Source: Variovorax paradoxus
GTDB taxonomy: Bacteria; Pseudomonadota; Gammaproteobacteria; Burkholderiales; Burkholderiaceae_C
Length of the DNA: 64,000 bases
Reading direction: 5' to 3'
NCBI GenBank assembly: GCA_016806145.1
Contig: CP063166.1
Span: 4,092,001-4,156,000, forward strand
In this document: piece after piece, positions 28,156-38,609 of the stretch
Layout: every line of letters starts with the position of its first letter
How positions within the stretch are numbered: position 1 is the first letter of the stretch
Notes under the pieces: generated by a model
Databases searched by the model: none
The model's input: only the letters and a program-made list of their open reading frames with translations
What the model was told of the DNA's origin: nothing
Made by a program: the position numbers and the translations under genes

Positions 28156-28812
28156 ATGTCCCAAACCCCTGCCGCCACTGCTTCCGCCTCCGGCCACCGG
28201 CCCTCGGGCCTCGACCAGTTGATCGCCCTCGCCGCCGCCCAGCCGCTGGCGCCGGCCTGCGACCACTTCTACTTCCTGCGCCACGGCCAGACCGGCCGCA
28301 ACGCGCAGCGCATCTTCCAGGCCACCGACGAGCCGCTGAGCGAGCTCGGCCTGCGGCAGGCCGCGCGCGCGGCCGAGCTGCTGGCGGGCGAGCCGATCCG
28401 CACCATCGTCTGCTCCGACGCGCGGCGCGCCTTCGACACCGCTCACGCGGTGGGCAGCGCGCTGAAGCTGGTGCCCACCGCGCAGGCCGTGCTGCGCGAG
28501 CGCAACTTCGGCGCGCTGATCGGCACCTCGTCGGCCAACATCGACTGGGCCTGCGAGCCCGAGGGCGGCGAGACGCTGGCCCAGTTCGTCGCGCGCAAGC
28601 GCGCCGCGCTGGCCGAGGCCCTGGCCCAGCCCGCGCCGGTGCTGGTGGTGGCGCACGGCGGCACGCTCTATGCGCTGGCCGCGCTGCTGGGCGTGCCGGT
28701 CGACCTGGGGCTGCTGGGCAACGCGCAGCCATTGCGTTTCGACCGCAGCGGCCCCACATGGGCCGTGACGCCGCTGCTGCGGCATGCCGACGGCGACGCC
28801 GCGCTGGCCTAG
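28156..28812 (+). CDS. Histidine phosphatase family protein
   Basis: 218 residues. The RHG motif at 42-44 (FLRHGQTGRN) carries the catalytic His43; the second His lies in VVAHGGTLYAL, and an acid is expected in LRERNFGAL. This is the branch-1 phosphoglycerate-mutase-like fold, comprising broad phosphatases acting on small phosphoesters. The N-terminal 30 residues are low complexity. It starts 56 bases after the acylase gene and is followed by cbpA on the same strand. Confidence 0.83.
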   Translation: MSQTPAATASASGHRPSGLDQLIALAAAQPLAPACDHFYFLRHGQTGRNAQRIFQATDEPLSELGLRQAARAAELLAGEPIRTIVCSDARRAFDTAHAVGSALKLVPTAQAVLRERNFGALIGTSSANIDWACEPEGGETLAQFVARKRAALAEALAQPAPVLVVAHGGTLYALAALLGVPVDLGLLGNAQPLRFDRSGPTWAVTPLLRHADGDAALA

Positions 28813-28862
28813 GGTTCTCCGAGCACCGCGCGCGAGCCGTCCCCACACCCCACACCAAGACC

Positions 28863-29825
28863 ATGGAATTCAAGGACTACTACAGCGCCCTGGGCATCGA
28901 GCGCACCGCGTCGGACGACGAGGTGCGCAAGGCCTACCGCAAGCTCGCGCGCAAGTACCACCCCGACGTCAGCAAGGAGCCCGACGCCGAGCAGCGCATG
29001 CGCGACATCAACGAAGCCAAGGACGTGCTCGGCGACAAGGAGAAGCGCGCCGCCTACGACGCCCTGGCCGACCGCGTGGCGCGCGGCGGCCGCCCCGACG
29101 GCGACTTCCAGCCGCCGCCGGGCTGGGACACCGGCTTCGAGTTCCACCGCGGACCGCGCCAGGGCCCGGCCGACCATGCCGACTTCAGCGAGTTCTTCTC
29201 CTCGATGTTCGGCGAGGCCGAGCGCCGCGGCGCCGCGCGGCAGAACTTCCGCGCGCGCGGCGAGGACCACCATGCGGCGATCGAGATCGCGCTCGAAGAC
29301 GCCCTCGGCGGCGCCGAGCGCGAGATCAGCCTGCGCTCGCAGGTGCTCGACGCGCAGGGCCAGCCGCGCTGGGAAACGCGCACCCTGAGCGTGAAGATCC
29401 CGCCCGGCGTGCATCCGGGCCAGTTCATCCGCCTCGCGGGCCAGGGCCTGCCGGGCCATGGCGGCGAGCCGGCCGGCGACCTCTACCTCGAGGTGCGCAT
29501 CGCGCCGCACAAGCTCTACCGCGTCGAGGCGCGCGACCTCTACATGACCCTGCCGGTCACGCCCACCGAGGCCGCGCTCGGCGCGCAGGTCGAGGTGCCG
29601 CTGCCCGGCGGCGGCGCGGTCGAGGTCACGGTGCCGAAGCAGGCCAAGAGCGGCCTCAAGCTGCGCCTCAAGGGCCGCGGCCTCGCGGGCAAGACGCCCG
29701 GCGACCTCTACCTGCTGCTCGACATCGCGCTGCCGCCCGCCGACAGCGAGGCCGCGCGCAGCGCCTACGAGGCGCTCGCGAAGGCCTCGGCCTCGTTCAA
29801 CCCACGCCAGCACCTGGGAGTCTGA
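28863..29825 (+). CDS. cbpA: Curved DNA-binding protein CbpA (DnaJ-type co-chaperone)
   Basis: 320 residues. The J domain spans about 1-70 with the HPD tripeptide at 33-35 needed to stimulate DnaK. There is a Gly/Phe-type linker and two C-terminal beta domains (about 125-305), but no CxxCxGxG zinc-finger repeats, which separates CbpA from DnaJ. It acts with Hsp70 and binds curved DNA in E. coli. The gene ends one base before the cbpM start, the classical cbpAM pair. Confidence 0.9.
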   Translation: MEFKDYYSALGIERTASDDEVRKAYRKLARKYHPDVSKEPDAEQRMRDINEAKDVLGDKEKRAAYDALADRVARGGRPDGDFQPPPGWDTGFEFHRGPRQGPADHADFSEFFSSMFGEAERRGAARQNFRARGEDHHAAIEIALEDALGGAEREISLRSQVLDAQGQPRWETRTLSVKIPPGVHPGQFIRLAGQGLPGHGGEPAGDLYLEVRIAPHKLYRVEARDLYMTLPVTPTEAALGAQVEVPLPGGGAVEVTVPKQAKSGLKLRLKGRGLAGKTPGDLYLLLDIALPPADSEAARSAYEALAKASASFNPRQHLGV

Positions 29826-29826
29826 G

Positions 29827-30141
29827 ATGGCGACCGTTTCCATCACCACCACCGCCGTCGGCCAACTGCATCCGCTGGCCGCGAGCGAACTCGCCCATGC
29901 CTGCGGTGCCGACACCGCCTGGGTCGTGCAACTGGTCGAGGTCGGCATCGTGCGCATCGAGACCGAGGAGGCGCAGCCCGAGCGCTGGCGCTTCTCGAGC
30001 GCCGACCTGCAGCATGCGCTGGAGGCACGGCGGCTCGAGCGCGACTTCGGCGTCGGCCTCGATGCCGCGGCGCTGATCCTCGACCTGCAGCACGAGGTGC
30101 GCAGGCTCAAGACGGTGCTGCAGGCGCACGGCCTGCGATAG
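29827..30141 (+). CDS. cbpM: Chaperone modulator CbpM
   Basis: 104 residues, directly behind cbpA with one base between stop and start. It has a MerR-like winged-helix fold (LHPLAASELAHACGADTAWVVQLVEVGIV) and an amphipathic C-terminal helix (LILDLQHEVRRLKTVLQ). CbpM binds the J domain of CbpA and inhibits its co-chaperone and DNA-binding activity. Length and context match the family well. Confidence 0.88.
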   Translation: MATVSITTTAVGQLHPLAASELAHACGADTAWVVQLVEVGIVRIETEEAQPERWRFSSADLQHALEARRLERDFGVGLDAAALILDLQHEVRRLKTVLQAHGLR

Positions 30142-30178
30142 GCCCACGCGCCGCAAGGAAAAGCCGCGCCGCGGCTTG

Positions 30179-30192
30179 ACCTTGACACCGTG
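30179..30192 (+). promoter_or_regulatory. Possible MerR-type (CueR-like) operator half-site
   Basis: ACCTTGACACCGTG matches the left half of copper-responsive CueR-type operators (ACCTTG, then a CAAGGT half in the other arm), but the right half here is degenerate (CGAGACCGAAG). An overlapping CTTGAC could serve as a -35 box. It lies 40 bases before the MerR family gene. Confidence 0.3.
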
Positions 30193-30231
30193 CGAGACCG
30201 AAGACTTCGGGCCTCTTCCACAGGAGGCCGC

Positions 30232-30747
30232 ATGACCCCTCGCACCCTTCCATCGCCCGTCCACGCCGACACCGCGCCGCGGTTCGACCTCGAGGCCGCG
30301 CTCGCGCGCGCCGGCGTTTCGCAACGGCTGCTGCGCCAGTGCGAGGCGCGCGGCCTGATCGGCGCGGCCGAGCCCCGCTACACGCACGCCCACGTCGCCG
30401 TGCTGCGCTTCGCGCGCCGCGCGCTGGCACTGGGCTTCGCCATGGACGAGATCGAGCAACTGGTGGCGCTGTGGCGCGACGAGGAACGCGCGAGCGCCGA
30501 GGTCAAGCGCCTCACGCTGTGCCGCGCCGAGGCGCTCGATTCGCGCATCGAGGAGCTGCAGGCGACGAAGCGCGTGCTCGAGCGGCTCGCGGGCCTGTGC
30601 CGGGGCGACCACCGGCCCGCGTGTCCGATCCTCGACGAGCTGGTGGAGCTCCGGGGCTTTGCCGCGCAGTGGCAGGGCGACTTGGCCCCTTCGATCAATG
30701 AGCGGGCCGGATCGGTGCAGGAGAGAAATCAGGCGCCAGGGCATTGA
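30232..30747 (+). CDS. MerR family regulator, CueR-like
   Basis: 171 residues from the ATG with AGGAGG in front. The DNA-binding part reads GVSQRLLRQCEARGLIG, then LGFAMDEIEQLVALWRD, as in MerR proteins. The metal loop has C123-x7-C131 followed by PILDEL, the CueR/HmrR arrangement for Cu(I), Ag(I) or Au(I). A longer than usual N-terminus (about 16 residues) precedes the helix-turn-helix. No copper efflux or oxidase gene is adjacent. Its last 53 bases overlap the 3' end of the convergent helicase gene, and the last 30 or so residues have no family look, which suggests that the neighbouring block replaced its original end. Confidence 0.75.
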   Translation: MTPRTLPSPVHADTAPRFDLEAALARAGVSQRLLRQCEARGLIGAAEPRYTHAHVAVLRFARRALALGFAMDEIEQLVALWRDEERASAEVKRLTLCRAEALDSRIEELQATKRVLERLAGLCRGDHRPACPILDELVELRGFAAQWQGDLAPSINERAGSVQERNQAPGH

Positions 30748-33352
30748 TCTCCCGCGCCAGCTGTCGCATGAGCTCGTCGCTCGCGTGCTCGTTGACCACG
30801 ACGCCGTGAAGCTGTGCCCTCAGCTCCTCCCAGCGCTCGCGCAACACCCGCCAGTTCTCCTCGTCGTAGCTTCCCTTGAAAACCACGGGCCGGATCTCGA
30901 TGCGGGGCGGGCCGTCGCCAGCCAAATCGGGGCCGGCTTTCTCCCAGGCCTGGAACTTCGATTGCCACAGGCTCCCGATGCGGTCCACGCGGCCGATCTG
31001 CTGCTCCACGACACCCGGATTCCACTCCGGATGAAGCAGGACGACCGTCCGGCACGCGGTGTGAAGGTTCAGCCCCTCGCGGCCCACGACCGACTGGACC
31101 ACGAGCACCTTGGGGTGGCTGTGCTCGCGATTGAATGCGAGCTGGAGCATCCGGCGCGTGTGGGGCCGGGTGTCTCCGTGCATCAGGCGCGCGAAAGCAC
31201 CCTCCGCCAGATTGAACTCACCCCTCAGCCGCTCTTCGAGCGCTTCCCATCGTTGCACTGCCTGTGCCTGCCCGCCCTGGCCCTCCGCATCGGAGCGGTC
31301 TTCCTGGTCGCTGGCCGCGTCGACCAGCTCGACGAAGGCTGCCGCGATACGTCCCGCGTCCACGGCGGCATCGCCGTGCCCCATGAGGTCCTGGATCGCG
31401 CGCGCCACCAGCGCCAGCACACCCGCATGGCGGGGGGTCTCGCGTCCGGCCTCGTGTTCCACGCGTGCTGCAAACGCCTCGTAGATCGACCGGATCCGAT
31501 GTCCGACCTCGATCGATCCGAAGCCCTGCGCGATCGACGCCACCAGATGGGTCCTGAACGTTTCCCGCTGCTGTTCCAGCGCCGCGTATTGGGTTTTCAG
31601 TCGACTGTCGATGTCATCGAGCGAATCGCGCCGGCCCGATTGGCGCAGCGCGGCGAGCACGGCGGCGCGCTCGGTATCGGCCAGCTTCTCCTGCGGCCAG
31701 AGCACGCCGCTGTCGAGGCTGCGCAGCAACGCGCGGGCATTGAGAAGCCGGACCAGCGAACGCATCGGCCGCGTGAATCGACCGAAGACCAGCACCTTTT
31801 CGTTGGCAGCAGGTCCGCAGGTGGCTTCGATCGCCTCGACGGCCGCCGAAATGGCCGGATGCTCGTAGAGGGCCGCATCGCTCGACGGCGTCGCCCCCTC
31901 GCGAAACGCGTCGGCCATCCTTTGCTTCCACCAGTCGGCACGCTGCTCCCGCTTGTTCCTGGGTGCTGCAATCACGGGATCCGCGGCTTCGACCGGGCCC
32001 GCACCATCCGCCTCGGCCTGCGCCTTGTCTTCCTCGGCATCCTGCAGCAGCTGATCCATCAGTGCGGCGATTCCATGTCCATTGCCCAGCGTCAATCGCA
32101 AGCGCTTGGCGACCGCGTCGTCGCTGCCCCGCGTCGCGAACGACAGGGCTTCGGCGGCACAGACCGCCTGCCGCCACGCTGGCGGCAGGCTTGCCGCGTC
32201 GATCGCGATGGCTCGCTCGCGCCTGTAGGCATGGTGGCTCTCTCCCGACAGCTCGGCGAAGCGCCTGACCCAGGGATCGTCCCGCTTGTCTCGACGCACC
32301 AGGACCGAACCGAAGGCGCTCTTGAAGCTCTGGGCCGCCTCGCCGAACGCAGCTCGCGTTTCCGCATCGGTGGGGCTGGCGCGCACCTGCTTGACCGCGG
32401 CCGCATAGTCATCGATCAACCGCTGGGCGCGGGGCAAGTCCGTTCCCAGGCGCCGAAGCGTCGAGGTCCATTGCTTCGCGTCCAGTTCGATCGGCGTTGC
32501 CGTCATCGCAAGCCGCCTCGCATCGGCGCCGGGCTGCACGACGAAATCCAGCAGGCGGTTGAGATTGCTTTCCTCGCCCCGGCTCTTGTGCGCCTCGTCG
32601 ACGATCACGAGATCGAAGCGCCCGAGCCCGAGGCCCACCACCTGTTCGAGCGCGCTCCTGAATACCGTGCGCTTGAGGTAGTTGCCGGGCTTAAACAACG
32701 GCGACTCCGCACCCCAGCGATTCAGTTCAGGGTGAAAGGCCAGTGCATCGAGCAAGGCCTCGTCCGAATTCTGGAGAATCCACTCCGCCGCAGCTGCGAC
32801 GCGGGCGTCGTTCATCTTTCCATCGCCCTTGTAGCCACGCGGACGCTGCCCCCTCACCGAACTCCGCTTCCGGGCCAAGATCAGGGTGGCCGGCAGCAGC
32901 GTCCACTTCCAGTTGGTCTTGGTATTGCCCTTGATCGACCAGTTGCAAAAGGCATGCGAGATCAGCAACGCCGGGTGATCTCCCCAGGGTTCCTCTGCGC
33001 CGGCCCCTTGCTTCCACGCATCCAGGTACGCGTCCAGGCTTCGAATGATCAGGGGCGTGTTCTCGATGTGCGCCTTGCGCTGCAGCTCTTCGCGCCACTG
33101 ATAGCCCAGCACCGGCGGAACGATGATGGCGACGCGTCCTCCGGCGTCGATCACGCCACGCGCGACGGCCGCGGCAATGCGCGTCTTGCCCAGTCCGACT
33201 TCGTCCGCGATGAGCACGCCGTTGCCCGGCAGGCGCTCGGCGATGGCGACGAGGCTGGCACGCTGCCCCGCGTTGAGTTCGATGGCGTGGCCGGCGGCGA
33301 TCTCCTGCAGATTCCGCCCGACGGCCTCCCAGCCCGCAAATGACCGGCTCAT
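30695..33352 (-). CDS. SNF2-type DEAD/DEAH helicase, candidate defence gene
   Basis: 885 residues from the ATG at 33352, which overlaps the stop of the preceding gene in an ATGA arrangement. Superfamily 2 helicase motifs are clear: motif I ADEVGLGKT (49-57), motif II VDEAH (251-255), motif III AMTATP (283-288), and motif VI QQIGRVDRIGS (784-794). The SNF2 style is shown by IADEVGLGKT and the GRVDRIGS arginine-finger block. Between motifs III and V lies a long helical insertion (about 300-600). It should be a DNA translocase without a visible nuclease of its own. Third and last gene of a three-gene, lower-GC operon with a phospholipase-D-like protein; the likely role is recognition or processing of foreign DNA. 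Confidence 0.85.
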   Translation of the reverse strand: MSRSFAGWEAVGRNLQEIAAGHAIELNAGQRASLVAIAERLPGNGVLIADEVGLGKTRIAAAVARGVIDAGGRVAIIVPPVLGYQWREELQRKAHIENTPLIIRSLDAYLDAWKQGAGAEEPWGDHPALLISHAFCNWSIKGNTKTNWKWTLLPATLILARKRSSVRGQRPRGYKGDGKMNDARVAAAAEWILQNSDEALLDALAFHPELNRWGAESPLFKPGNYLKRTVFRSALEQVVGLGLGRFDLVIVDEAHKSRGEESNLNRLLDFVVQPGADARRLAMTATPIELDAKQWTSTLRRLGTDLPRAQRLIDDYAAAVKQVRASPTDAETRAAFGEAAQSFKSAFGSVLVRRDKRDDPWVRRFAELSGESHHAYRRERAIAIDAASLPPAWRQAVCAAEALSFATRGSDDAVAKRLRLTLGNGHGIAALMDQLLQDAEEDKAQAEADGAGPVEAADPVIAAPRNKREQRADWWKQRMADAFREGATPSSDAALYEHPAISAAVEAIEATCGPAANEKVLVFGRFTRPMRSLVRLLNARALLRSLDSGVLWPQEKLADTERAAVLAALRQSGRRDSLDDIDSRLKTQYAALEQQRETFRTHLVASIAQGFGSIEVGHRIRSIYEAFAARVEHEAGRETPRHAGVLALVARAIQDLMGHGDAAVDAGRIAAAFVELVDAASDQEDRSDAEGQGGQAQAVQRWEALEERLRGEFNLAEGAFARLMHGDTRPHTRRMLQLAFNREHSHPKVLVVQSVVGREGLNLHTACRTVVLLHPEWNPGVVEQQIGRVDRIGSLWQSKFQAWEKAGPDLAGDGPPRIEIRPVVFKGSYDEENWRVLRERWEELRAQLHGVVVNEHASDELMRQLAREINALAPDFSPAPIRPAH

Positions 33353-35352
33353 TGCAGTTCTCCCATCGACACCATCTCGTCCACGCCCCAGCTGAGTTCG
33401 ATGCGCCGGAGCGCCTCCTCGTAGAGCCGCCCCTCGGAGGTTTCGGCGGTTTCGGCGAAGCTCGGGCGAAAGGGAGCGCACCGCAGAGGACTCAAGGGAT
33501 TCAACTTCGGCGCCTGCTGCATCCGGAAATAGGCCACCGGTCCGCTGTCCCTCATGCGAACCAGCGTCTGTTCGAGCCGTCGGCACCAGGGCTCCCAATC
33601 GCGCCTGTCGATGGCCGTCTGCTTTTCGGCGATGTTCTCGATCAGCTCCATCATCTGGCGGATCGAATAGCTCGACACCAGCGTGCGACCGCCTTCCCCG
33701 CCCGGCTCGCCCGGGTGGTCGTCCCGTGAATCGGGATCATCATTGGAGGTCTCCTCGATCGGCACCAGCGGAAAGTCCGCCAACTGCCACCAGCCCTCGT
33801 CGACCCCCAGAGGCATCAGCTTGGCTGCCGCAATGCGTCCGAACTCGTCGATCACGGGGATGTCCGCTTCCTTCCGCGTGCCATCGGCATTCCACCGGCA
33901 GCGCACGACCCGAGGGCGGCGCCCCGTCCATGGGATGGTGCCACCGCTCACGACGCCTGGAATGCCTTCGGGCGTCAGCACCTGGAAGGCGAGTTCGTAG
34001 TCCAGCACTTCGGCGGGCAGCGAAAGGAATCCGCCATCGCCTGTCTCGCACCACGCGAGCCAGGCCACCGGCGGCGCCGTATGCAAGGTCTCGGGCCGTT
34101 CGAAGGAATCGCCGGCCGACAGGACCGTGGAACCATCGAAGGCCTCGGTCCATTGGATCGGCAGCAGATTGCCGACGACCTGATGGGCCTCGATTCCCCG
34201 GTCCGCATGCCAGTACAGGGGACCGGGCGCGAAGACGACGCCGGCCTCGAGATTTCCCGATGAAGGGCTCATCGCGTTCGCGAACCCCGGCCCCGTGAGA
34301 TTGCCCGAGCCCAGGTAGATCCAGGCGCCATTGCATCGGGGGGCGTTGCTGGCGTACTTCGCGCTGAACAGGAACTTGGCGTGCAGCGTCCGCGCACTGT
34401 TGTCGCCGAACAGCGGTGACGGGGCCGCAGCGGGTCTCACTTTCACGCCTTGGTCTTCCAGGGCCTGTACCGAGGACGCCACCGCCTGGCACGCCAGCCG
34501 GTTGACGAAGAGATCCACCTCCGCGGCCCGGGTCAACAACGAGGCCTCCTTCAGTGCGCGGATCGCCGCGACGGGCACCGAAGGCGCTTCCGACGGGCGG
34601 GTCCCCGATTCGTAGAAACCGGAGCCCATGGCCAGATAGTTTCGGGGGCCGGATTCGCTTTCGGCCTTCACCTTGGTCGGCAGTTGGCTCAGCAAGGAGG
34701 CATGCCTGTTGTCGAAGAACCGCGGTTCGCCCGCTGCCGCCGCCGCGCACCGTGCCATCCAGGCATCGAGCAGTTGGACATGCTCGGAGCCCGACGGCGA
34801 TGCGTCCAGCAGCCGGGTGTCGAACCACGCCCGGATGGCACCCAGCAGCCCCTGGGCGGCACCGATGTCCGCGCACGCCCGGCGATCGTCGGCCGCGGGC
34901 TCCGCCAACGAATCGCTGTCGACCTCGACGCGCCACGCCAGATCGAGGCTGTCCTCGAGCGTCTGGCGTGTCCAGTTTCCCGTCGCAACGACCAATCGCA
35001 GACGCCAGCGATCGCGCTGCTCCAGATGGCGATAGCCCAAGAGCGCGACCTTGGCGTGCAGCAGCCGAAAGGGCTTGTCCCGCGCCTCCAGGATCGCGAG
35101 ATGAGCGATGCCCGGCGCGTCGATGAAGCCGATCGGCGGATGGCCAGGGTCGACGATCAGGGCCAGCGCGACGTGACCCTGGCTGGCGCGCTGGTCCTTC
35201 GTGAGCGCCGTGAAGCGCTCGGCTGCGTCGTTCAGGAACGGGGCATCGGCCGAATATCCGCAGATCCAGCCGAAATGACCAACGTAGCCTTCAGGCGCAT
35301 CGAAATGCTGAGCCAGCGAAGGCAGGCTCAGACGACCACGGTCACTGCTCAT
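33349..35352 (-). CDS. Phospholipase-D/Tdp1-like protein with two HKN motifs
   Basis: 667 residues. Two catalytic half-sites are visible: H99-x-K101 (LLHAKVALLGY) with N126 (VVATGNWT), and H324-x-K326 (LHAKFLFSAKY) with N351 (YLGSGNLTG). This H-x-K ... G-N pattern, rather than a full HKD, is the arrangement of tyrosyl-DNA phosphodiesterase 1 and related PLD nucleases. There is no signal peptide, so it acts in the cytosol, presumably on DNA ends or protein-DNA links. The C-terminal third (from about 440) is an unassigned domain. It overlaps the unknown first gene by 11 bases and the helicase gene by four, implying coupled translation and a shared complex. Confidence 0.8.
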   Translation of the reverse strand: MSSDRGRLSLPSLAQHFDAPEGYVGHFGWICGYSADAPFLNDAAERFTALTKDQRASQGHVALALIVDPGHPPIGFIDAPGIAHLAILEARDKPFRLLHAKVALLGYRHLEQRDRWRLRLVVATGNWTRQTLEDSLDLAWRVEVDSDSLAEPAADDRRACADIGAAQGLLGAIRAWFDTRLLDASPSGSEHVQLLDAWMARCAAAAAGEPRFFDNRHASLLSQLPTKVKAESESGPRNYLAMGSGFYESGTRPSEAPSVPVAAIRALKEASLLTRAAEVDLFVNRLACQAVASSVQALEDQGVKVRPAAAPSPLFGDNSARTLHAKFLFSAKYASNAPRCNGAWIYLGSGNLTGPGFANAMSPSSGNLEAGVVFAPGPLYWHADRGIEAHQVVGNLLPIQWTEAFDGSTVLSAGDSFERPETLHTAPPVAWLAWCETGDGGFLSLPAEVLDYELAFQVLTPEGIPGVVSGGTIPWTGRRPRVVRCRWNADGTRKEADIPVIDEFGRIAAAKLMPLGVDEGWWQLADFPLVPIEETSNDDPDSRDDHPGEPGGEGGRTLVSSYSIRQMMELIENIAEKQTAIDRRDWEPWCRRLEQTLVRMRDSGPVAYFRMQQAPKLNPLSPLRCAPFRPSFAETAETSEGRLYEEALRRIELSWGVDEMVSMGELQ

Positions 35353-36634
35353 GCGCCGCCTCCGATCGATTCCTTTGAAGCCATTCGCCGAGACGGCCTT
35401 GCATGTCGAGGTTCAGCAGGTACAGGTTGCGCACGCGATAGGAAATTCCGGTGGGAACGCGAACGTCGCCCGTCGGGCCATCGTCGTCTTCGTCCGCCTG
35501 CGAGGATTCCTCGATGGCCGTGCCGCGAAATGCCGCGCCCGCCGGCCGTACCTCGCTGCCGGCGAGGCGAAGCACCCTGCCGTCGCGCTCGACCAGGCCC
35601 CGGAGAACCTGCGCCGGGCTGTCGGCCGCGCACAGGCGGGAGAAATCGAGGGCTTCCGCGTCTCGATGCCCGAGCGCGAGGAATTCGTTCGCCGTCCGCC
35701 GCAGCGCATCGATGGAATGCCCGGTGCGTCGCGCCGCGTCATCGATGGAGGTCGGCCGCCCTTCGGGCCCCATGGCCCCCTCCACCGCATCGAGCGTCGC
35801 GATGGCGGCATCGCGAACGGCAAAGAACGCAGCGCCCGCCTGCAGGTCGTGCCAATGCCTATCGTCCGAAATCTCGGCGGGCCTGCGCCAATCCGTCGTC
35901 GGGTCGGTGTCGAGACGAGCGACCCAGTTCAATGCGCTGCGTCGACGCAGGCGACTGTCGGGCTCCTCGTTCTTTCCACCCAGTTCGAGCCGTGCCCGGA
36001 TCTGCGTGCAGGCGGAAGCCGGCAACGCCAGCAAGGGAGACAACGCGTCGCTCAAGTAGGCGGTGTCGGTGCGGTTTTCCTCTCCGCGCACCCACTTCAC
36101 GAGATGGTCGACCACGGACCGGTTGTAGGGCGAGTAAGGCCGGCACGCATCTTCGACGAACGCCTCTCCTTCGTCCGAGGCGCGAAAGGCATTGAAGCGT
36201 GTGGCGCCGTTCTCGGCAAATCCCAGTGCGGGCAATGCCCGTACCGCCGCCATGCGCATCGGCTGGCTCACGTAGAAGCCGCGTCGCGCGACCTTCCTGA
36301 AAGAAAGATCGGCGGTCTGTCCCTGCAGCTTGGTGCGGCCTCGCAGGCGGGCATCGGGTTGCCACCCCTGGCCCTTGAAAGCCAGGCAGCATGCCAATGC
36401 CTCGACGGCATTCGCGACCTCGATGTTCTGCACCTTGCCTCCGCGCAGTCGCACACGCTCGGCCACCACGATCCCCAGGGTCGCCAGCAGGAAGCGCTTG
36501 CCGTACCAGACACCACCCATGCCGGGAACGGCAAGCTCATTGAACCGTCGGATGGTCGCAGCGAGCCCCAGGCTTCGGGTGCGACGAGAAATCGGAAGCT
36601 GCTCAGGCCCCAATAGTCCCCAGACTCCTCCCAT
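35342..36634 (-). CDS. Unrecognised 430-residue protein, first gene of helicase/PLD operon
   Basis: 430 residues; the ATG has an AAGAGGGG ribosome site eight bases upstream. I do not recognise the family. The N-terminal third contains a hydrophobic helix-rich segment (FLLATLGIVVAERVRLRGG, about 48-66, then VANAVEALACCLAF) that could be a core helix rather than a membrane span. The middle is rich in Arg and aromatic residues. A second region (about 275-330) has the look of a small winged helix (SIDDAARRTGHSIDALRRTA). It ends with an acidic linker (SSQADEDDDGP) and a helical tail. No catalytic motif is evident, so it may be a DNA-binding or sensor subunit for the PLD and helicase proteins. Confidence 0.75.
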   Translation of the reverse strand: MGGVWGLLGPEQLPISRRTRSLGLAATIRRFNELAVPGMGGVWYGKRFLLATLGIVVAERVRLRGGKVQNIEVANAVEALACCLAFKGQGWQPDARLRGRTKLQGQTADLSFRKVARRGFYVSQPMRMAAVRALPALGFAENGATRFNAFRASDEGEAFVEDACRPYSPYNRSVVDHLVKWVRGEENRTDTAYLSDALSPLLALPASACTQIRARLELGGKNEEPDSRLRRRSALNWVARLDTDPTTDWRRPAEISDDRHWHDLQAGAAFFAVRDAAIATLDAVEGAMGPEGRPTSIDDAARRTGHSIDALRRTANEFLALGHRDAEALDFSRLCAADSPAQVLRGLVERDGRVLRLAGSEVRPAGAAFRGTAIEESSQADEDDDGPTGDVRVPTGISYRVRNLYLLNLDMQGRLGEWLQRNRSEAAHEQ

Positions 36635-36660
36635 TCATACCCCTCTTTTTTTTGATTGAG

Positions 36661-36702
36661 CGCTCCCCGCGTTCCATTTCACCGGTCGTTAGCGCGGGAG
36701 CG
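36661..36702. promoter_or_regulatory. Imperfect inverted repeat upstream of the helicase/PLD operon
   Basis: CGCTCCCCGCG and CGCGGGAGCG pair with one bulged base around a 21-base loop, 27 bases upstream of the first gene's start on the minus strand. In this position it could be an operator or leader hairpin for the three-gene operon. The 136-base gap to the next gene holds nothing else recognisable. Confidence 0.4.
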
Positions 36703-36770
36703 AGTTTCAGTCTATCCGTCGTGCGTTGCGCACGGCGCAGGCCGTGGCGAACTCGATGCTCACCGGAATC

Positions 36771-38525
36771 TCACTGCATCCGCGGCAGATTCCCGATCCG
36801 CACCAGCATCTCGGTGAACATCTGCATGTCCGCGTCGAGGTCGGGCACTTCCTTGTATTCCTTGGCGTTGTGCGCGGTGTATTTCTTGCCGGGCATCGCG
36901 GGGCCGAAGTTGATCGCGTTGGGCATCAGCTTGGCGGTGGTGCTGCCGGCCGTGGGCACGGGCTTGGCCTCCAGCCCGGTGGTGTCGCCGTAGATGTTCA
37001 GCAGCGTCGAGAGCCAGGCGCCCTTGGGATCGCGCGCCATCCAGTTGCCTTGGTCGTACTGGATGTCGGGCTTGACCTTGGCGGCGTCGGCCCAGGCCTG
37101 CACCTTCGCGGTGACCTGGGCCTTGAGTTCATCGGGCGTGCGGCCGCGCGGCATGCGCACGTTGACCGTGACCTCGACGCGACCGTCGGCGCCCGCGCGC
37201 ACCAGGTTCGGCGAGAAGGTCAGCGGGCCCATGAAGTCGTCGGCATAGCCCAGGCCCAGCTTCTCGCCAAGGTAGCCCGTGCCGTAGAGCGCATCGAGGT
37301 AGTCGACCGCCTGGCGAAAGCCGTTGGGCGCGAGCGCGAGGCCCGACTCCTTGAGGAACAGCGCGAGGCGCGGCACGGGGTTCACGCCCTCCTCGGGCCG
37401 CGAACCATGGGCCGAGACGCCGGTCACCTTGAGCTCGATGCTGTCGGCGCCGCGCGCGATGTCGATGGCGAACTTGCCGCCCTGGACTTCGTACTTGCGC
37501 ACGAAGCCGGCCTTCGCGGCCTCGAGCGTCGCGGCCGCCGCGCCGAGGTCGCCGCCCTTGAGCGTGGCGGTGGCGGTCTGCGCGATCGCATTGGCCGAGG
37601 CGGCACCGGCCATCGCGACGATGGCGGTGGCCGCGGGGTCGGCGGGCTGCGCGGGGAAGAACACCTTGAGCGCGCCCGAGCCCTTCTCGGCCACGACCGC
37701 CGGGTACTTGCTGTCGAGCACGATGTTGTAGGCCGGCAGCGCCGTCTTGTTGCGGTAGTAGAGCATCGCGTCGCCACCGGTCTCCTCGGTGGTCTCGATC
37801 ATCAGACGGATGCCGCGCTCGAGCGGCAGGCCGCTGTCCTTGACGGCCTTCATCGCATAGAGCACGGCGGCGATCGAACCCTTGTCGTCGATGGTGCCGC
37901 GGCCGTAGAGCAAGTCGCCCACGCGGGTCATGGTGAAGGGATCGAGTCGGGTGCCGTCGTCGAGCACCCATTCGGACAGCACGGCGGGCACCACGTCGGC
38001 ATGCGTGAGGATGCCGAACTCCTCGCTGCCGCTTCCCTGGAGGCTGACCTCGAAGATGCGGTTGTCGACGTTGCGCCAGTTCAGGCCGAAGTCCTTCGCC
38101 ATCGTCTCGACCAGCCGGCCGAAGTCGAGGATCGCGGGACTCTCGTGCGGCGGCACCTGCACGTTGCGCACGGTCGGGATCGCGACCATGGCGCCGATGG
38201 TCGCGATCGCCGCCTGCTGGTTGTGCAGCCGGTTGTACAGGCCGAGCAGGCGCGCGATGTCGACCAGCGCATCGCCTGCGAGCGGCTGGCGCCGGCCATA
38301 CGCGGACACGGCCGCGGCCAGCTCCTTGTTCGCGGGGTTCGCGGCCACGGCCTGGGCCAGGAAGGCATGGAAGTCCTTCGCAGTCTGGCCGGCCTGCCAG
38401 CGCGCGGCGAGCTGGTCGAGGGCGGGCTTCTTGAGCGTGTCGGCGAAGGCCGTGCCGCCAACGGCGAGCACGGCGCAGCCGAGGGACAGGGCGGGCAGCG
38501 AAAGGCGGGAAAGACGCGATGGCAT
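36771..38525 (-). CDS. Exported M20 family peptidase (PepV-like dipeptidase)
   Basis: 584 residues with a cleavable signal peptide (cut expected after GGTAFA near residue 28). The M20 metallopeptidase ligands are in order: H175 (THADVVP), D213-D214-K215 (GTIDDKG) and E247-E248 (ETTEETGGD). A lid domain follows, with the later His in GVSAHGSRPEEG. The length, with a roughly 100-residue helical N-terminal extension, exceeds PepV (about 470). It would release amino acids from dipeptides in the periplasm using two zinc ions. It is the first ordinary-GC gene on the right side of the helicase/PLD block. Confidence 0.83.
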   Translation of the reverse strand: MPSRLSRLSLPALSLGCAVLAVGGTAFADTLKKPALDQLAARWQAGQTAKDFHAFLAQAVAANPANKELAAAVSAYGRRQPLAGDALVDIARLLGLYNRLHNQQAAIATIGAMVAIPTVRNVQVPPHESPAILDFGRLVETMAKDFGLNWRNVDNRIFEVSLQGSGSEEFGILTHADVVPAVLSEWVLDDGTRLDPFTMTRVGDLLYGRGTIDDKGSIAAVLYAMKAVKDSGLPLERGIRLMIETTEETGGDAMLYYRNKTALPAYNIVLDSKYPAVVAEKGSGALKVFFPAQPADPAATAIVAMAGAASANAIAQTATATLKGGDLGAAAATLEAAKAGFVRKYEVQGGKFAIDIARGADSIELKVTGVSAHGSRPEEGVNPVPRLALFLKESGLALAPNGFRQAVDYLDALYGTGYLGEKLGLGYADDFMGPLTFSPNLVRAGADGRVEVTVNVRMPRGRTPDELKAQVTAKVQAWADAAKVKPDIQYDQGNWMARDPKGAWLSTLLNIYGDTTGLEAKPVPTAGSTTAKLMPNAINFGPAMPGKKYTAHNAKEYKEVPDLDADMQMFTEMLVRIGNLPRMQ

Positions 38526-38609
38526 GGAGGAGCTCCCTCGTGGCAGATACATCCGCCGACGATAGCCGAGCCCACGTCACAAGCAGCCTCGCGACGCGGG
38601 CCCCAACGA

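Follow-up and report, generated by a model that had tools for sequence, protein, structure and literature searches.

Introduction

The described immune system closest to the locus reported here is Azaca, an operon (ZacA-ZacB-ZacC; PADLOC models PDLC03828-03830) that, like our locus, joins an unknown protein to a PLD nuclease and a SNF2 helicase. Azaca was reportedly found as an anti-phage system, and a helicase and a PLD protein are also combined, together with a kinase, in Mokosh. PMC10952713 lists Azaca among phage defence systems and PMC10482375 places it among systems of unknown mechanism. A further combination of this kind, an HKD nuclease with a Swi2/Snf2 helicase, is given for BREX-related (BR) Type-2 systems in PMC12839542. 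Here we describe three genes on the minus strand of a 64,000-nucleotide stretch of Variovorax paradoxus DNA, the whole of which we call the window. We refer to the genes as A, PLD and SNF2 and to the set as the trio. Our best reading is that the trio constitutes an undescribed sister system of Azaca, whose function in defence we infer, and the open-access literature searched contains no description of it.

Results

The first gene, A (35342..36634, minus strand), encodes a subunit of 430 aa from a large family without known domain and is the counterpart of ZacA by position. It is followed by PLD (33349..35352, minus strand), a predicted nuclease of 667 aa with two H-x-K...N motifs that is a remote homologue of ZacB, and by SNF2 (30695..33352, minus strand), a Swi2/Snf2-type helicase that is kin to the ZacC, PDC-M27C and DrmD helicases and has 885 aa when counted from an ATG and 967 aa in a longer ORF that begins with TTG. 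A and PLD overlap by exactly 11 bases and PLD and SNF2 by exactly 4, so that the three minus-strand genes, sizes and overlaps given in an earlier note made from the sequence alone were all correct. That note had further read the last two products as a SNF2 helicase and a PLD protein with two HKN motifs, and both identifications hold: Pfam finds Helicase_C, ResIII and SNF2-rel_dom in SNF2, and the two motifs of PLD (H99/K101/N126 and H324/K326/N351), plus E369, are invariant in all 46 aligned relatives, while the Pfam match of PLD to PLDc_2 stands at 20.8 bits, under the 27-bit cut-off. The conserved motifs of SNF2 include Walker A, DEAH, TATP and motif V/VI. The Walker A residues tested are conserved in 39 of 40 relatives, with a gap in the remaining one, and the D, E and H of motif II together with the tested motif V/VI residues in 40 of 40. 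From established family knowledge we take these to be the HKN nuclease and helicase motifs of PLD and SNF2. The first protein, which the same note could not recognise, likewise has no credible family in Pfam, NCBIfam or PADLOC. A comparison of 51 A proteins with the PADLOC models at E<=1 returned a sole match to Cas5g (one protein, E 0.046), and solved structures gave A a single chance-level match (E 0.99) and the PLD profile none at E<=1.

The three genes are real and form one unit. In protein searches that scored about 8000 sequences each, A had 614 relatives and PLD 942 (E<=1e-3), of which 120 were listed in each case. A genome scan produced 76 loci, judged by record title to lie mainly in Pseudomonadota, the other hosts being Planctomycetota, Nitrospirota, Acidobacteria, Desulfovibrio-type bacteria and a Polyangiaceae MAG. 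The order A-PLD-SNF2 is kept in 60 of the 61 loci whose sequence runs for 5.5 kb or more from the A start, the 15 of 76 with too little sequence being omitted, and the one exception, L050, has part of PLD only and lacks SNF2. With start codons picked by script, 43 of 63 loci show an exact 4-bp overlap between PLD and SNF2. Furthermore, the distance matrices of A, PLD and SNF2, calculated for 55 of the 76 loci, correlate with r of 0.911, 0.901 and 0.935 (0 of 999 permutations as high), from which it follows that the three genes travel together. Trio copies in L025, L028, L050, L073 and L076 look interrupted, with A or PLD frames cut short in the script ORFs or, in L050, without SNF2, as is expected where an accessory system comes and goes.

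The trio occupies an inserted low-GC segment (30664..36772, without strand) that holds little else and is absent from three congeners. On its left lies a MerR-family regulator gene (30190..30747, plus strand), the last bases of which belong to the insertion, where they overlap with the end of SNF2, and on its right an M20-family peptidase gene (36771..38552, minus strand), an ordinary genomic neighbour. The GC content of the segment is 66.6%, against 72.8% in the 10 kb to the left and 70.7% in the 10 kb to the right, and is below that of all 457 non-overlapping 6.1-kb windows (step 100). The lower GC that had first been noticed is therefore real, while the figure then given, 60-65% against about 73% in neighbouring genes, is not borne out. 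The empty site is seen in G404, G406 and G412, where the sequences matching 30663-30672 and 36773-36775 of the window map 10-27 bp apart. As the flanks are adjacent in these three congeners, the insertion, of about 6.1 kb, consists of the trio and little else. Congeners G410 and G400 carry other DNA at the MerR/M20 site, judged by Pfam only: a CheW/Cache protein in G410, and in G400 a LysR regulator with long ORFs without Pfam match. A role of this site as a defence hotspot is not supported. To the left of the insertion, a plus-strand 430-aa ORF (28784-30076) has a GC3 of 55% and counterparts that hold stops in several congeners. This frame is unlikely to be a real gene; the one on the minus strand at 28809-30272 may be the better candidate.

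A occurs in 2 of the 398 genomes of a phylum sample, the window's own included, and in 4 of 81 genomes of the genus, as three complete copies (again with the window's own) and one fragment of 35 residues close to the end of a contig. Apart from that of the window, the complete copies are assigned by an exact 100-base match each to the contigs of L044 (Variovorax sp. Root411) and L053 (Xenophilus sp. L33). Their proteins are 41-46% identical to those of the window, and over the 17-18 kb compared their DNA shows no resemblance to the flanks in the window. Such low identity and differing flanks suggest separate gains.

To place the trio beside Azaca, ZacA was tied to a Pfam family. Genes of DUF6361 (PF19888) at L087:7337-8503 and L088:7212-8528 have ZacB and ZacC genes adjoining, and PADLOC scores these loci as ZacA 1.6e-128, ZacB 5.7e-167 and ZacC 0 (L087) and as ZacA 3e-89, ZacB 2.6e-117 and ZacC 1.2e-266 (L088). 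The genomic neighbours and the scores together identify DUF6361 as ZacA. Further Azaca loci were taken from plasmids and genomes. An annotated DUF6361-PLD-helicase operon of Azaca type also lies on a haloarchaeal plasmid from Halomarina (L095:6001-12295), which extends the architecture into Archaea.

The PLD and SNF2 of the trio are remotely homologous to ZacB and ZacC. All 46 PLDs match the ZacB model PDLC03829, at 3.3e-12 for the best and 1.4e-8 for that of the window, and hhalign gives 94.9% in an alignment of 122 columns in the N-terminal region. Similarly, the ZacC model PDLC03830 matches 40 of 40 SNF2s (best 1.4e-19, with PDC-M27C and DrmD scoring better), and hhalign gives 97.3% over 376 columns. 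For the window's SNF2 the best models are those of DrmD (PADLOC 2.7e-21, NCBIfam 100 bits), with ZacC at 4.5e-11. The first subunit differs: none of 51 A proteins matches the ZacA model PDLC03828 at E<=1, DUF6361 is absent from the Pfam matches of A at E<=0.1, and hhalign of A with ZacA gives 0.3% untrimmed and 1.2% with another ZacA profile. Gap trimming raises the score to 29.7 (E 0.006, hhalign probability 6%), aligning columns 147-314 of the A profile with columns 177-318 of ZacA, and this score beats 40 column-shuffled and 200 block-shuffled decoys, the best of which reached 25.3. With the other ZacA profile, the trimmed score is 20.2 and was equalled by 7 of 40 decoys. Across two ZacA profiles, a single sequence and the shuffled controls, the signal for direct homology of A and ZacA proved too weak and unstable for us to claim it. 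These results bear on whether the trio is instead a very divergent Azaca, in which A would be a ZacA homologue beyond sequence detection and the locus a type of Azaca instead of its sister. The same gene order, the similar sizes and the trimmed score above all 240 decoys speak for that possibility, yet the low hhalign values, the second profile at the level of its decoys and the silence of the ZacA model across the 51 A proteins make it doubtful. We therefore prefer a sister system, and the trio is not filed as Azaca because its first subunit does not answer to ZacA.

PDC-M27, a candidate system in PADLOC (L128, with relatives L129 and L130), shares the plan and gene order of the trio, with subunits of 474, 674 and 887 aa (longest ORF, L128) against 430, 667 and 885. 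L128 was identified by PDC-M27B (2.3e-224), its first subunit being assigned by position, and L129 and L130 by homology to its first gene. In a relative from Rhodoferax the first subunit is 35.5% identical to that of L128, and PLD and helicase genes are annotated. PDC-M27-type cores are found on one conjugative and one mobilizable plasmid. By hhalign, the PDC-M27 first subunit resembles neither A (0.3% against the first gene of L128) nor ZacA. PDC-M27B matches 2 of 46 PLDs, weakly (best 0.0066), with an hhalign value of 9.7%, and PDC-M27C matches 40 of 40 SNF2s (best 4.5e-26), the top E-value among the 25 PADLOC families listed of 31, with hhalign giving 99.2% over 120 columns. Since the helicase models of other systems also match, that of DrmD better than PDC-M27C for the window's SNF2, this indicates kinship with PDC-M27 and not membership.

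The genes beside the window's trio are of a metabolic or regulatory kind and do not make up a defence island, and AAA, WYL, DUF2779 and PD-(D/E)XK/UvrD modules are absent from the nine flanking ORFs scanned. A gene of one of these families lies upstream in 26 of 65 trio loci and is missing upstream in 39 (AAA 20, WYL 14, PD-(D/E)XK 8, UvrD 8, DUF2779 3), a count that covers loci with at least 4.5 kb upstream (15 of 80 omitted), leaves downstream genes such as those of L011 uncounted and includes some AAA matches more than 7 kb off, which may be unrelated. A PDC-M27-type and an Azaca core have such modules beside them too. Ahead of its core, the Rhodoferax plasmid relative of PDC-M27 has AAA, DUF2779 and WYL genes that share 62-71% identity with the corresponding set in four trio loci, which lies upstream in L002, L003 and L037 and downstream in L011. 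In Azaca locus L102 the core follows a PD-(D/E)XK gene and a UvrD gene with 40% and 46% identity, respectively, to their counterparts upstream of the trio in L080, and Azaca loci L092, L093, L094 and L098 have a UvrD about 28-32% identical to that of L080 over part of the chain. As both modules also occur without the trio, such sharing reflects common company rather than a common pathway. An AAA-DUF2779-WYL set without trio is found on a Diaphorobacter plasmid (L131:6742-11476), close to a HipA-type gene and additional WYL regulators, and AddAB-like PD-(D/E)XK and UvrD pairs without adjoining core at L136:11001-16749, L137:11001-16798, L138:9675-15528 and L139:11001-16756, in some plasmids near TIR or WYL genes. 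The latter pair may be a defence module in its own right. Either module as an obligatory part of the trio is ruled out, being missing from the window's copy and upstream of 39 of 65 loci, and occurring trio-free.

A number of these neighbours are of defence type, and WYL regulators, according to the title of PMC9122601, co-localise with phage defence systems. Among four annotated plasmid copies, L078 lies near a NERD gene, L079 near HEPN, Fic, CcdAB and integrase genes, L080 near a recombinase, and L081 near a transposase and a conjugation gene. The near neighbours further scanned with PADLOC at 1e-20, namely 91 of at least 92 proteins (one very long ORF of L069 being omitted), gave raw counts, among the 25 families listed of 133, of WYL 4, type I methyltransferase 3, DrmD 2, BrxH 2 and others, and these matches weakly support the defence reading. 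An accessory operon for DNA repair or recombination rather than defence would also accommodate SNF2, PLD/Tdp1-like, AddAB-like UvrD/PD-(D/E)XK and WYL proteins, all of which occur in DNA-damage responses as well. PafBC and SiwR are WYL regulators of that kind. Such an operon is highly improbable, however, given the rare and patchy occurrence (2 of 398), the precise insertion polymorphism and the flanking modules held in common with PDC-M27-type and Azaca cores in some loci.

With regard to mobile DNA, relatives of PLD are present in seven plasmid records, four of them typed conjugative, and relatives of A in none of 50,697 phage records and none of the viral contigs covered by a pattern scan. 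Of the plasmid records, five of the seven with a PLD relative, 10 of 45 with a ZacA relative and two of three with a relative of the PDC-M27 first subunit were examined, as were five of 29 with a DUF2779 relative plus Rhodoferax as a sixth, and four of 11 with a PD-(D/E)XK relative plus Leisingera, Fuscovulum and Paracoccus. Carriage on plasmids, by the trio and by PDC-M27-type cores on conjugative and mobilizable ones, and the lack of matches in phage records or viral contigs would suit a trio whose targets are plasmids or other mobile DNA, or that serves in competition between mobile elements, rather than one directed at phages. We regard this as unlikely, because the nearest named system, Azaca, is listed as phage defence (PMC10952713) and because chromosomal copies exist too, for example L045 on a complete chromosome and the window's own on a multi-megabase contig.

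Discussion

We propose that the trio is probably a self-contained and horizontally moved immune cassette with the architecture of Azaca and a first-subunit family of its own. It probably works as Azaca does, and we infer the following course of events. A, PLD and SNF2 would form one complex, in which A would recognise some feature of invading DNA, be it a sequence, an end, a replication intermediate or a modification, and gate the complex. SNF2 would translocate along the DNA on ATP, and PLD, as a one-chain pseudo-dimer with two HKN half-sites, the arrangement of Tdp1/BfiI-type enzymes, would cut the DNA without metal and so may protect the cell from phages. As the cassette contains no methyltransferase, self DNA is probably spared by its structure or state and not by a methyl mark. 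The earlier suggestion of a candidate helicase/PLD defence operon, either a variant or new, is in keeping with the conserved synteny, the insertion polymorphism, the ZacB/ZacC homology and, in part, the defence-type neighbours. Its proposed check, conserved synteny inside defence islands, came out for the synteny (60 of 61) but not for the window's flanks, the modules being present in 26 of 65 loci.

As in DISARM, the trio pairs a SNF2 helicase with similarity to DrmD and a PLD protein, and the absence of a DUF1998 protein and a methyltransferase, first remarked upon in the earlier note, extends to the Pfam scan of the trio and to the nine flanking ORFs scanned. Unlike DISARM, then, the trio is without the DUF1998 protein DrmB and without a methyltransferase among those ORFs, and with its NCBIfam DrmD match at 100.3 bits against a 610-bit cut-off, membership of DISARM was rejected. 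The likeness to BR Type-2 lies in the nuclease and Swi2/Snf2 helicase, and Mokosh models are absent from the PADLOC matches listed (for SNF2, 25 of 31 families). Assignment to BREX-type systems or to Mokosh is rejected or not supported.

The trio thereby adds a sister of the poorly understood Azaca that the PADLOC models tried have missed, and explains operons of helicase and PLD in which the first gene had no name. With the equation of DUF6361 with ZacA and a profile of A, both could be recognised by annotation tools. The parallel with Azaca drawn in the earlier note is borne out by the remote homology to ZacB and ZacC but not by ZacA (0 of 51). The A-B-C order of Azaca, kept in the Azaca loci compared, is that of the trio (60 of 61 loci), and the best ZacB and ZacC scores of the trio family are 3.3e-12 and 1.4e-19, against 2.6e-117 or lower in two real Azaca loci. 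With PDC-M27 the trio shares not only plan and order but also, through the Rhodoferax relative, the AAA-DUF2779-WYL genes of four of its loci. Finally, the balance stands about even on whether Azaca, PDC-M27 and the trio make up one modular immune superfamily, in which a PLD nuclease and a SNF2 motor would be combined with swapped, unrelated first subunits acting as recognition modules, and in which regulatory and nuclease add-ons, namely AAA-DUF2779-WYL and the AddAB-like PD-(D/E)XK and UvrD pair, would fit more than one core. If so, more first subunits are to be expected upstream of such PLD-SNF2 pairs, beside those of the three systems compared here.
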